From assembly GCF_022512515.1 (NCBI RefSeq), contig NZ_JAKWBK010000001.1, positions 372,001-436,000 on the forward strand: a stretch of DNA of 64,000 nucleotides. The letters run 5' to 3'. Positions 59,080 to 63,550 of the stretch are shown here, piece by piece; position 1 is the first letter of the stretch, and each line of letters opens with the position of its first letter. The notes under the pieces are model-generated. The model made no database searches. It was not told where the DNA came from and saw nothing but the letters and a program-made list of their open reading frames with translations. The DNA comes from Paraniabella hibiscisoli (lineage in GTDB: Bacteria; Bacteroidota; Bacteroidia; Chitinophagales; Chitinophagaceae). The position numbers and the translations under genes are program-made.

Positions 59080-60159
59080 TTAATCTACCACCAAAAGACC
59101 TACGGTAACATTTAAGAAGTTATCGCAATAAGTTATGGGCGATGTTGAACAAACATTTTCCAGGTTGATCGTGTTTCCTGAAATCAAGGTAGTGGTAACA
59201 TTGGTATTGTTGCTTAACACCAGGGTTTTTGCCGTGTTTATTGCAGGACTGATAGTACCGGTATACTTTCCTGCAGCTGTCCGGCTCCATGTAACAGTAA
59301 CGCCCAGGTTATTTACTAATGGAACTCCTACCGGAGCGCCGGTTCCCTGCTGGCTTACCACTGTCGCATACACCCGGTTGGCATTACACATATAAGAAGT
59401 CTTACTAATCTCAGATTGATCTAACACATTATTCCGGTTCATGTCCGTACCATAATTGATACGGGTACCACCACCTGCGCAATTGGCACCGATAGGCTCG
59501 GGTACCACATCTACCAGGCTGTTATAACCATTGGTGCCGGTACCGCCTGCCGCATTACAGATATATTGCGTGCTTTGCACTTCACTGTTATCCAATACAT
59601 TGTTACGATTAATATCTAAACCCGCACTTATTTTAAAACCGCCGCTGGCACAATTGGCGCCGGCAGCTTCTGCCACAACTGAGGTCAGGGTGCTGAGTCC
59701 ATCATTTCCATTGCAGATATAGGCAGTGGTTTGCACTTCAGCAGCATCCAGCACATTATTGCCATTGGTATCTACGCCTGAAGTAACCTTATATCCACCT
59801 TTTGCGCAATTGGTTCCCGCACTTTCTGTTACAAAGGAGATCAGCGAATTTCTGCCATTGCTGCCGGTACCTCCGTTGCCATTGGTACCGTTACACAGGT
59901 ATTTGGTAACCTGCACTTCGCTGGCATCCAATACGCTATTCCCATTCAGATCTATTCCGGAAAGTACCTTATACCCTCCATTGGCACAGTTAGTACCTGC
60001 GGGCTCGGTTACAAAATCGATCAGGCTATTTTTGCCATTAGTGCCATTGGCACCATCAGTACCGTCTGTTCCGTCAGTACCATTTCTGCCCTGGGTTCCT
60101 TTTTTGCAACTAAATAAAAGGGCACAGAACAAAGTAACTACAATAAAATAAGTTCTCAT
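59080..60159 (-). CDS. Repetitive lipoprotein with collagen-like stretch and four DUF7151 repeats
   Basis: 359 residues, intact. Lipobox L-F-S-C (Cys 18), a short G-x-x run (NGTDGTDGTDGANGTNG, residues 26-42), then four repeats of about 50-55 residues (about 50-95, 108-150, 160-200, 214-256). Each has N-C-A-x-G-G-x-x-x-x-x-G-x-D-x-N-x-N-x-V-L-D and ends Y-x-C-N. The D-x-N-x-N-x-x-L-D-x-x-E core looks like an EF-hand Ca-binding loop, and each repeat has two Cys that could pair. A non-repeated beta-rich C-terminus follows. Surface-exposed; function unknown. Confidence 0.85.
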   Translation of the reverse strand: MRTYFIVVTLFCALLFSCKKGTQGRNGTDGTDGTDGANGTNGKNSLIDFVTEPAGTNCANGGYKVLSGIDLNGNSVLDASEVQVTKYLCNGTNGNGGTGSNGRNSLISFVTESAGTNCAKGGYKVTSGVDTNGNNVLDAAEVQTTAYICNGNDGLSTLTSVVAEAAGANCASGGFKISAGLDINRNNVLDNSEVQSTQYICNAAGGTGTNGYNSLVDVVPEPIGANCAGGGTRINYGTDMNRNNVLDQSEISKTSYMCNANRVYATVVSQQGTGAPVGVPLVNNLGVTVTWSRTAAGKYTGTISPAINTAKTLVLSNNTNVTTTLISGNTINLENVCSTSPITYCDNFLNVTVGLLVVD

Positions 60160-60392: not shown

Positions 60393-61759
60393 ATGAGCCA
60401 AGTTTGGAAAGAATACCAGGAGCAAAACCAGGAAAGATTTTTGAAAGAAATGATGGATCTGTTACGTATTCCATCAATCAGCGCTAAAAGTGAACATAAA
60501 GATGATATGATCCGGTGCGCTGAAGCGGTGAAGGCATCTTTACTGGCCAGTGGTTGTGATAAAGCTGAAGTGATGGATACGGGCGGGCATCCGGTGGTTT
60601 ATGGCGAAAAAATGATTGATCCGACAAAACCTACCGTATTGGTTTACGGGCATTATGACGTACAGCCTGTGGAACCACTGGAGCTGTGGCATACACCTCC
60701 TTTTGAGCCTACTATTAAAGATGAAAAAGTATTCGCGCCGCGGCAGCGCAGACGATAAGGGACAGTTTTACATGCATGTGAAAGCCCTGGAAACCATGGT
60801 GAAAACCAATACCATGACTACCAATATTAAGTTTATTATTGAAGGCGAGGAAGAAGTAGGCTCTCTCTAACCTGGGCAGGTTTGTAGCAGCCAATAAAGA
60901 GCTATTAAAAGCCGACGTGATCCTCATCAGCGATAGTTCTTTGCTGAGCATGGAGAACCCGTCTCTTGACACGGGCGTGCGTGGGCTAAGCTATATTGAA
61001 GTGGAAATAACCGCGGCAGCGCGCGACCTGCATAGCGGTACTTATGGAGGAGCAGTGGCCAATCCGATAGTAGTATTATCTAAAATGATCGCCAGCTGTC
61101 ACGATGAAAACAACCATATTACCATACCTGGATTTTACGATGACGTAAATGTGGTTTTGGAAGAAGAAAGAGCGTTGATCAATAAAGCGCCTTTTAACGA
61201 ACAGGAATATAAAGACGAAATTGGCATCCAGGAATTATGGGGTGAGAAGGGCTTTAGCACTTATGAACGCACCGGCATCAGACCAACACTGGAACTTAAC
61301 GGTATCTGGGGCGGCTATACCGGTGAAGGAGCGAAAACGGTGTTACCAGCCAAGGCAACGGCGAAGATCTCTGCAAGACTGGTTCCTAATCAAACCAGCG
61401 AAAAGATCACTGAATTATTATTAGCTCATTTCAGAAAAATAGCCCCTTCCTGCGTAACAGTGAATGCTTTTGAACATCATGGTGGCGAGCCTTACGGTAC
61501 ACCAATCGACAGTAAGGGTTACCAGGCGGCAAGCAAGGCGCTGGAAGCTACTTTTGGCAAAACACCGATACCGGTAAAAGGTGGCGGCAGTATTCCTATT
61601 TGTCATACACTCGAAAGCGAGCTGGGCACTAAAATCATCTTCATGGGCTTCGGACTGGATAATGACGGATTGCATAGCCCGAATGAGAAATACAATATCG
61701 AGAACTATTATAAGGGCATCGAAACCATTCCTTATTTCCACCAGTTCTTTGCAGAATAA
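60393..61759 (+). CDS. M20-family metallopeptidase (dipeptidase)
   Basis: About 455 residues. Di-zinc ligands are visible: His in VLVYGHYDVQP, bridging Asp in RGSADDKGQ, Glu pair in IIEGEEEVGS, then Asp in LISDSSLL, and a late His in GGSIPICHTLES. A lid domain (about 190-350, LHSGTYGGAVANP) is inserted as in M20A/F dipeptidases. Hydrolyses di- or small peptides in the cytosol. Two frame breaks: one apparent extra C near 60738 in GCGCCGCGG (repair gives VFARGSADDKGQFYMHV), and a CT-repeat slip near 60868. Confidence 0.92.
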
Positions 61760-61766
61760 AGTGAAT

Positions 61767-62419
61767 GCCACGAATGCACGAATAGTTATTACTTATTCAT
61801 TCGAGCATTCGTGGCTAATATAATATTGCTGACACTTATAAACCACCACCTATGAACGAACCAATCATCTTTAAAGAAGAAAGCTATGAAATTGTAGGCG
61901 CCTGCATGGAAGTACATAATCATCTGGGTGCAGGGTTTGCTGAAATAGTTTATAAGGATGCGCTGGAATATGAGTTTAGACAACGCGACATTCCTTTTGA
62001 AAGAGAAAAACAGTATACTGTCCAATACAAAAACATCCTGCTACCTCATTTATTTTATGCCGACTTCGTTGTGTTTGATTGTATCATTCTCGAAATAAAA
62101 TCTGTTTCACAGTTCACTAATGAATTTACAGCACAATGTATTAATTACCTGAAAGTGTCGGGTAATCAGTTGGCCATGCTGGTAAATTTTGGCTTAGCGC
62201 GTCTGGCTTATAAACGTATTGTCTGGTAGTAGTGCCTTATTGAAGAATTTTATAACGCCACGAATGCACAAATGATACGACAAAAGTCTTGAACTTATTA
62301 GGTAGTTAGCTATTTGCTCATAACATCGAAGAACATAATTCGTTTCAACGAATCAATAAAGCTCTTCCATTGATTTACTAACTTTTTCTGAACATCTCAA
62401 AAATTCGTGCATTCGTGGC
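61767..62419. mobile_element. Candidate single-gene element bounded by perfect 17-bp inverted repeats
   Basis: GCCACGAATGCACGAAT at 61767-61783 and its exact reverse complement at 62403-62419 enclose one gene (61852-62229). Two further arms lie inside: an inverted copy at 61799-61815 (one difference), which forms a 17-bp hairpin with the left end, and a direct copy at 62257-62273 (one difference). No target-site duplication is apparent: the flanks differ (GTGAAT left, AAATCT right). No transposase is encoded. It may be a mobile unit, or repeats that accumulate around this gene family. Confidence 0.55.
61852..62229 (+). CDS. GxxExxY protein, PD-(D/E)XK nuclease-like fold
   Basis: 125 residues, intact. 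Family motif G-F-A-E-I-V-Y at residues 28-34. The later YADFVVFDCIILEIKSV has Asp71 and E81-x-K83 in the spacing of a PD-(D/E)XK catalytic site, and E20/E31 could complete it. The family is widespread in Bacteroidota, often in several copies per genome, and has no proven activity. It sits alone between the M20 and GH16 genes, surrounded by four copies of a 17-bp repeat. Nuclease activity is a prediction from motif spacing only. Confidence 0.85.
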   Translation: MNEPIIFKEESYEIVGACMEVHNHLGAGFAEIVYKDALEYEFRQRDIPFEREKQYTVQYKNILLPHLFYADFVVFDCIILEIKSVSQFTNEFTAQCINYLKVSGNQLAMLVNFGLARLAYKRIVW

Positions 62420-62448
62420 AAATCTGCATAGCTCATTTCAAAACCCTA

Positions 62449-63550
62449 CTACAGCGGCTTCACTTTTATATAATCTACTTCGAACACCGCAGGAAAGGTG
62501 GTGAAAAATAAGCCTTCTATATTACAGGCATTGCTATTATTCCCGGCTGGTGTCTTCTGATCTTTTAAACAACGGTTCGGCATAGGTAAGTATCCCAACT
62601 GCTGATCTGGCTGGCCTACCCAGCGGCCACCTACCGCCATATTCACACATATATCCCAGGTTTCGTTAGCGCTGTTTGGGTAACGTTTCTCAACGGAGGT
62701 CCTGTCAACCAGGTGCAGGTCACGGATCGTTTGTATATCCGTTAGTTTATAATACCCGTATGGTGTACCATCGAGGTAGGCCGTAAAGATGATAGGATCG
62801 AGCAGCTCGTTATTGTTTTCATTAGCGCTTTTAATTTCCACCGCCCACACATGCCAGCCGCCGGTTCCGGCAACGGGCTCTTCAAAAAAACATGCTGTTG
62901 CGTGGTGTTCGCTCCTATTGTATTGGGAAAATGCAGGGTAAATTTAGAGTACCCGGGCCGATAGCCGCCAAAATACTCCATAATATCTACTTCTCCCCAG
63001 GAAGCGCCATCTTTCCTACGCAGCCAGAACGCAGGTAAAACGCCCTGTCCATGCGGAATACGTGCTCTTATTTCATACCGGGCGAATAAGGAAAATACCT
63101 GGGCGTAGCAGCTTCACGGGTATTGATCAGCCCTGACGTCCAGTACCGGGTACCTGCAGGTAACCCCTCCTGCGGTGATGCACGCATAATACCATCGCTA
63201 CTAACAAAAGACATTACAGGCGCCTGGTAGGCGGGCCCGGAGAAAGTTTCTTTACGCGAAGTGATCTTCAAAGTTCCATTGGAGACCTCCAGGTTATCAG
63301 GGCGATACCATTGGGATTCGAAGTTGCCTGATGAGTAAGGTAGCGACATTCTCAACCACTTAGCCGGATCAACGGCTGTGCCCGAAAAGTCCTCGTAGAA
63401 ATAATACTGTTCTTTTTCAACAGGTGGATCAACAGGGGCAGGTTTTTTACAGGACGCCAGCAATAATACAACGATCATCCATTTTATACCAGCAGTAATA
63501 GAATTACGAGGATGGAGCTGTTTATGTATCCATTGGTGAACAAGCATCAT
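62449..63550 (-). CDS. GH16-family glycoside hydrolase, lipoprotein
   Basis: About 367 residues. Lipobox L-L-A-S-C about residue 34, then a concanavalin-like domain with the GH16 catalytic ExDxxE in WGEVDIMEYFG and HVWAVEIKS behind it. The family cleaves beta-1,3(4)-glucans or related galactans; subsite specificity is not evident. Two one-base deletions, near 63085 (repair gives PRYEIRARIPHGQGVLPAFW) and 62885 (T run; repair gives HVFFEEPVAGTGGWHVW). Outer-membrane anchoring is likely. No sugar transporter genes lie beside it in the window. Confidence 0.9.

Follow-up and report, generated by a model that had tools for sequence, protein, structure and literature searches.

What connects a small predicted nuclease gene with the short inverted repeats on either side of it, and do gene and repeats together form a unit that spreads? 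This question is raised by a locus in the window, by which we mean the whole 64-kb stretch of DNA analysed here, where one GxxExxY gene stands between mirrored copies of a 17-bp motif. An earlier note on this DNA had read the arrangement as a minimal mobile or self-spreading unit whose nuclease could act on the repeat hairpins.

The hairpin-gene-hairpin locus

The locus comprises the following features, given in window coordinates:

60917..61759, + strand: M20 peptidase gene, C-terminal part; left neighbour and anchor for the orthologous-site comparison
61766..61783 (17-bp motif 61767-61783), + strand: outer left arm, copy 1, exact GCCACGAATGCACGAAT; motif scan and inverted-repeat match
61799..61815, - strand: copy 2, 1 mismatch to GCCACGAATGCACGAAT; partner of copy 1 in the left hairpin, arm spacing 15 nt
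61852..62229, + strand: GxxExxY gene, 125 aa, predicted PD-(D/E)XK nuclease fold; profiles and predicted structure
62257..62273, + strand: copy 3, 1 mismatch to GCCACGAATGCACGAAT; opens the right hairpin
62403..62420 (17-bp motif 62403-62419), - strand: outer right arm, copy 4, exact GCCACGAATGCACGAAT; partner of copy 3 in the right hairpin, arm spacing 129 nt

The framing repeats described in the earlier note are real, as GCCACGAATGCACGAAT at up to 3 mismatches has just four matches in the window, two of them exact and all around the GxxExxY gene, against a chance level of 0.12 (mean of 100 shuffles; maximum 1). Its two inner near-copies are borne out too, each being the partner arm of a hairpin, one per gene side. 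The outer arms (61766-61783 and 62403-62420) form an 18-bp match with a spacing of 619 nt, and the single gene that they enclose, at 61852-62229, is indeed GxxExxY, since its product passes both TIGR04256 (GxxExxY; 135.7 bits, cut-off 35) and PF13366 (PDDEXK_3; 123.3 bits, cut-off 22). Copy 1 can pair either with copy 2, as a hairpin, or with copy 4, as the outer stem; in the alternative pairing, copies 1 and 4 and copies 2 and 3 make two nested stems, which is how we read the predicted RNA fold of the unit (-162 kcal/mol vs a mean of -143 for 20 shuffles). The repeat word is iterated at the locus, with CCACGAAT followed by GCACGAAT. Among the 71 window ORFs of at least 100 aa, an inverted repeat scoring at least 16 joins the 300-bp flanks of GxxExxY alone, and three other ORFs score 14. 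The unit begins 7 bp past the M20 peptidase stop, a position outside 23S rRNA, and the region 61500-62700 has no Rfam match up to E 1.

The reading of the M20 gene (60393-61759) and of the right-hand gene (62449-63550) is split over several frames; the broken frames of both neighbours, taken with an assembly completeness of 83%, suggest assembly indel errors. Elsewhere in the window, a putative collagen-like lipoprotein (59080-60159, - strand) is rich in GTNGTDG and carries repeated EPAGTNCANGGYK-like modules.

A predicted PD-(D/E)XK nuclease

The AlphaFold2 model of the window protein has a pLDDT of 96.5. Below E 0.001, Foldseek returned only four chains of 4ic1 (SSO0001, a Cas4; best E 1.7e-4); LHK-Exo, RecE, AddAB, a Cas4-family protein and lambda exonuclease came next. 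With VIA-align, 4ic1 reached Z 9.9 with an rmsd of 3.3 over 98 residues, the next structure reaching 7.7. Invariant positions across 20 diverse aligned homologues include H22, E31, D71, E81, K83, Q95 and Y99, and H, D, ExK and QxxxY among them correspond to the RecB/Cas4 signature. The protein is thus predicted to be a PD-(D/E)XK enzyme with the fold and the catalytic residues of the Cas4/RecB type. It resembles the Cas4, RecB and lambda-exonuclease nucleases in predicted fold and in these invariants, and differs from them in being a stand-alone protein of 125 aa. Estimates of dN/dS range from 0.03 to 0.16 with a median of 0.064 (144 pairs at 76% identity or more, dS being saturated in many), by which measure the protein is under purifying selection.

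No sequence relative was found in the PDB up to E 1, and five profile matches at E 0.83-0.86, all to one homing-endonuclease fusion protein, were taken as chance. Membership in an anti-phage defence system was considered and set aside, as no PADLOC model matched up to E 1; the best PHROG match had an E of 0.16. In the open-licence PMC library, we found no description of the function of GxxExxY genes, recognised no report of repeats linked to them and found none of the literal repeat strings. Where papers of this library name GxxExxY or PF13366, they mention the gene or domain in passing, in passages that leave the repeats unmentioned.

Flank inverted repeats across GxxExxY loci

GxxExxY genes occur in 75 of 117 genomes of the family and in 101 of 198 genomes of the phylum. 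Three sets of loci were scored by one criterion, namely that the two 300-bp flanks be joined by a local inverted match scoring at least 16. Set 1 held 94 loci, namely 30 returned by the family search, the four own-genome paralogues and 60 more in list order (three matches near a contig start were left out and one split match was merged), and 88 of these had 300 bp on both sides. A flank inverted repeat was present in 60 of the 88, against 6% with swapped flanks and 0/86 with flanks taken 600-900 bp out. Direct matches of score 16 or more between the flanks (33/88) are expected if both sides hold whole hairpins or iterated words. An alignment of the window protein's clade detected 531 relatives, and the best 80 of them formed set 2, which gave 54/70 against 1/58 at 900-1200 bp out, or 53/69 without L230, which scores high only through aligned masked N runs; its swapped-flank rate is high (37%) because the clade shares one word. 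The two sets overlap slightly (L211, L213 and L247 are L047, L046 and L048). Set 3, the 30 best TIGR04256 loci from the 198 phylum genomes, gave 22/30 (swapped 8%, further out 0/30), with words mostly of the CACAGAG type. The remaining 28/88, 16/70 and 8/30 loci of the three sets have no flank inverted repeat of score 16, three of the five GxxExxY genes in the window's own genome being among them. It was also considered whether the unit sits in opposite orientation between shared neighbours at some loci; this was rejected, the cross-side matches being weak paralogues of 24-42% identity.

Motif copies and paralogues in the own genome

In the own genome (6.1 Mb), the motif has 23 matches at up to 2 mismatches, vs 0 for the reversed control. 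Nineteen of them lie away from the window gene, at 14 other places; 14 of the 23 make up seven convergent pairs less than 150 bp apart with GCC outward, and 13 of the 15 motif places are free of any overlap with ORFs of at least 90 aa. Five GxxExxY genes are present in this genome. The earlier note had asked whether the 17-bp motif flanks most copies, and here it does not: the CACGAAT motif was not found within ~4.9 kb on either side of the other four. A single motif universal to all GxxExxY genes was accordingly rejected, as the four paralogues carry other words. By eye, TGTCTGAAC...GATT words flank the paralogue at C5:12071 on either side; at C3:292924, this word lies to the left of the gene and the right arm is degenerate. 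CCGCAGAG words enclose the paralogue at C1:3057254, and the one at C1:811865 has a ACCATTAAG/ACCATGAAG-type array upstream only. The automatic flank score is 18 for C1:3057254 (L028) and 9 to 12 for the other three. Four word types stand beside the five paralogues, with one gene for the CACGAAT-type and two for the TCTGAAC-type repeat class.

Repeat word versus protein lineage

Word classes were assigned from the flanks alone by our own regular expressions, which labelled 80 of the 94 set 1 loci and left 14 unlabelled; some expressions count a site twice, and among the 'CTAAT' labels a few seem to be spurious. A near-identical rule, applied to check the labels, gave 72/88 for near flanks vs 13/86 for flanks 900-1150 bp out. 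Over the 80 labelled loci, word class changes 16 times on the protein tree, where 300 shuffles averaged 44.4 changes and never fell below 39, and in 60/80 cases a protein shares its word class with the one nearest to it from a different genome (expected 18.0). Because several word classes occur in one genome, host relatedness alone does not explain the match between word and protein. Among close homologues of the window protein, 69/70 have at least two CACGAAT/CACTAAT/CACAGAT-type words within 250 bp; in the distant control, 1200-1450 bp out, any word class appears in 4/58 set 2 loci. The close-homologue records carry titles from Bacteroidota groups, Melioribacteraceae/Ignavibacteria, Chlorobiota, Calditrichota, Acidobacteria and Bdellovibrio, and are mostly metagenome bins, so that binning errors are possible. 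Judged from sequence comparison, word and protein are co-inherited across GxxExxY lineages.

Dispersed gene-less copies

At up to 1 mismatch, the motif is found in 11 of the 117 family genomes (reversed control 0). Genomes were divided by whether they have a homologue, complete or as a fragment, at 60% identity or more; two or more copies occur in 5 of the 6 genomes on the near side of this cut vs 3 of the 111 others. With 15 further congeners, the corresponding figures are 12/13 vs 6/119 (both tables Fisher-tested). The cut was set after inspection of the data and admits two fragments (G030, G121), and because the genomes are related to one another, the p-values make the evidence look stronger than it is. 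One exception is G040, where a 65% homologue is paired with the CACAGAT word. In the counted genomes, gene-less copies are more numerous than units and, where looked at, lie mostly between protein genes; the congener G128 has 93 motif copies, and in G059 and G127 all counted copies are at the unit itself. In G030, the variant ACCACGAATGCACGAAT accounts for 15 of 25 copies, including two of the three beside its gene fragment, and genome-specific word variants are, by such counts, common to gene-flanking and dispersed copies.

Some genomes are rich in the motif without a close gene, with 20 copies in G125, 15 in G129 (best gene 53%), 9 in G032 and 10 in G044. The TGTCTGAACYRNGATT word is present in 40/117 genomes at up to 102 copies (control matches 2 in all), and the TCTGAAC word occurs without a close gene in G077 (102 copies), G105 (20), G046 (19) and G005 (10). 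These same four genomes, which hold the TGTCTGAAC word at 10 to 102 copies and have no GxxExxY match or a very weak one, possibly harbour orphan repeat populations. In G045, a stretch of ~39 kb (C1:462275-500890; L083, L091) holds ten TGTCTGAAC repeats and two GxxExxY genes.

The form of the copies was followed in G122, where neighbours less than 150 bp apart are convergent in 10/12 cases and divergent in none, and where a partner arm is present at 12 of 20 sites, the other 8 consisting of one arm. The solo hairpins of this genome have conserved arms and mostly unrelated loops (L301 and L302 share a loop). Unrelated loops and single arms (8/20) are not what simple copy-and-paste would give, and no target-site duplication was seen by eye in the 12 nt on either side of the 20 sites. 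At L308 of the same genome, related hairpins are arrayed at steps of ~90 bp with an inner CGCCAATTAGATTGGCG palindrome.

Presence, decay and absence at orthologous sites

The M20 gene to the left of the unit is present in all 17 genomes searched, and in 11 of them an S4-domain gene lies downstream within 1.5 kb. The M20-S4 space holds an intact unit in G127 and G128, a unit with its gene in two frames in G123, a unit with an internal gene deletion in G121, and a solo hairpin in G124 and G122, degenerate in G119; it holds no unit in G125, G117 and G118, and other DNA in G129. In the remaining six genomes, the M20 site has an intact unit in G000 (the own genome), a two-frame copy in G131, a fragment in G120, a gene-less hairpin in G130 and no unit in G022 and G126; as the assemblies of G000 (83%) and G120 (72%) are of low completeness, some frame breaks may be sequencing errors. 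Sister genomes differ in having the unit or an empty site (G128, G125) and the unit or a solo hairpin (G127, G124). In G117, the relic ATTCGTG stands 18 bp before S4, matching the outer-arm position of G127, which makes loss likelier there than primary absence. No target-site duplication was seen at the M20 site, where the relatives are too diverged for base-exact empty sites, and the search for a fresh insertion from a close genome pair gave partial matches only. With trees compared by eye, ancestral insertion followed by repeated loss fits the M20 site better than recent jumping.

A second site is flanked by genes that we take to be copA (left) and an MFS gene (right). It has one hairpin in G131 and no CACGAAT hairpin in G122; in the own genome, an Imm7 immunity gene stands between two CACGAAT hairpins (L030:9233-10030, that is, C1:452934-453730), Imm7 being the sole gene scanned, and in G120 two hairpins enclose ~10 kb with a further hairpin inside (site loci including L361 and L362). 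On comparison of these sequences, the polymorphism shows a hairpin-bounded change that may be gain or loss.

The claim of a mobile or self-spreading unit thus survives in part. In its favour are the recurrent architecture, the match of word to lineage, the dispersed gene-less copies and a site that is sometimes empty or reduced; against it are the lack of any target-site duplication seen and the better fit of the M20 site to an old insertion with repeated loss. The earlier note had asked whether empty orthologous sites exist, and the M20 site is without the unit in some genomes of the same genus (e.g. G125, G118). It had also held that a motif scattered genome-wide with no enrichment near the gene, at a locus never empty, would speak against its reading: the motif is scattered, with 19/23 matches away from the gene, yet its enrichment at the gene is strong, and in some genomes the site lacks the unit.

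Four-helix-bundle genes with similar brackets

TIGR02436 four-helix-bundle (S23-like) genes are present in 87 of the 117 family genomes. Of the 30 best-scoring loci (L135-L164), 29 were usable, and 23/29 have flank inverted repeats of iterated words (swapped 10%, further out 0/26). Their words (e.g. TAAGTTTTAAG) are mostly unlike the GxxExxY words.

Explanations for the gene-repeat association

A gene between mirrored words, related genes with related words and scattered copies of the words together make gene and repeats look like partners, and on these sequence patterns we consider it very likely that the two are functional partners. On balance, we lean towards a widespread two-part system in which the GxxExxY nuclease and its word hairpins form a REPIN/RAYT-like pair, the enzyme acting on its own repeats; that the nuclease drives the spread of the repeats is a narrower claim, on which we stand evenly divided. 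The nuclease would recognise its own word, probably as a hairpin or cruciform, and would nick or process it; repeat copies might then gain new sites via repair or recombination, as proposed for RAYTs and REPINs, and recombination between flanking hairpins could remove the gene and leave a solo hairpin.

A different reading makes the unit a passive selfish insert of the intervening-sequence (IVS) type, which the host would tolerate because RNase III cuts out the long stem of its transcript (copy 1 with 4, 2 with 3) and whose protein may act on RNA or hardly at all. Such an RNA parasite would account for the predicted outer 18-bp and nested stem (-162 vs -143 kcal/mol) and for the TIGR02436 genes bracketed likewise in the same genomes (23/29), and it has a counterpart in the Coxiella IVS, where terminal inverted repeats are described together with an S23 ORF and with tandem heptamers (PMC4990558). 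We nevertheless regard it as unlikely, given a predicted fold like that of DNA nucleases, purifying selection on the protein, and gene-less copies that exceed units and lie mostly between protein genes. The hairpins might instead be spread by another agent or by recombination, GxxExxY being one of several cargoes swapped or deleted between them, as the copA-MFS site with its hairpin alone, Imm7 or ~10 kb between hairpins would allow. An ordinary cargo, however, would not be expected to have its protein tracked by the word or to be bracketed at most loci tested, and apart from GxxExxY none of the 71 window ORFs has brackets of score 16, which leaves this explanation quite improbable.

It has also to be asked whether GxxExxY is an ordinary chromosomal gene regulated by the repeats as operator or terminator. 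In favour of this, 28 of the 60 set 1 loci with flank inverted repeats have a right arm that starts no more than 10 nt from the stop codon. Mirror symmetry on both gene sides, the 19/23 own-genome matches at 14 other places and the presence of four word types beside the five paralogues of a single genome all tell against regulation of this kind. So does the mostly unrelated gene neighbourhood (64 loci make 2016 pairs, of which 32 have a neighbouring homologue in common, some of these matches being weak), and we give this explanation very little credence.

Relation to known systems and significance

Orphan repeats and genome-specific variants, as described above, have parallels in REPIN/RAYT systems. 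The GxxExxY repeats are likewise short intergenic palindromic doublets that may form hairpins, in many copies per genome, and the gene is flanked by its own repeat class. REPINs are described as hairpin doublets, with gene-flanking repeats and gene-specific repeat classes (PMC3116915). Unlike the RAYT enzyme, a REP-associated tyrosine transposase of the Y1 HUH type, the protein here belongs by profile and predicted fold to a PD-(D/E)XK family; the repeats also differ in being iterated short words, with several gene-word pairs per genome. Because the RAYT enzyme is absent, the GxxExxY system is not itself a member of REPIN/RAYT.

The likeness to the 23S rRNA IVS lies in a small ORF, terminal inverted repeats forming a predicted stem and tandem heptamers, and it extends to the S23 ORF, in that the TIGR02436 genes show a hairpin-bracketed architecture too; the differences are a location outside rRNA, a different protein and dispersed gene-less copies. 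For Coxiella, the IVS is described as a 428-nt selfish element whose ORF is prone to decay (PMC4990558). By analogy, we infer that the 23S rRNA intervening sequences may be one case of a wider class. A broader and distinctly tentative proposal, which we rather doubt, is a new selfish class in which GxxExxY nucleases and, separately, S23-like bundles would each be matched to its own palindrome of an iterated word of 7-10 nt, recognising it and causing it to spread or home; the 23S rRNA IVS would then be the one long-known special case.

Through the association, a DNA target can be predicted for each GxxExxY member from the sequence that flanks it, which makes the function of these genes directly testable. 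If the favoured two-part reading is true, REPIN-like repeats would have in GxxExxY a second class of partner enzyme, unrelated to the first, and the link of gene and repeats may offer a frame for the intervening sequences.
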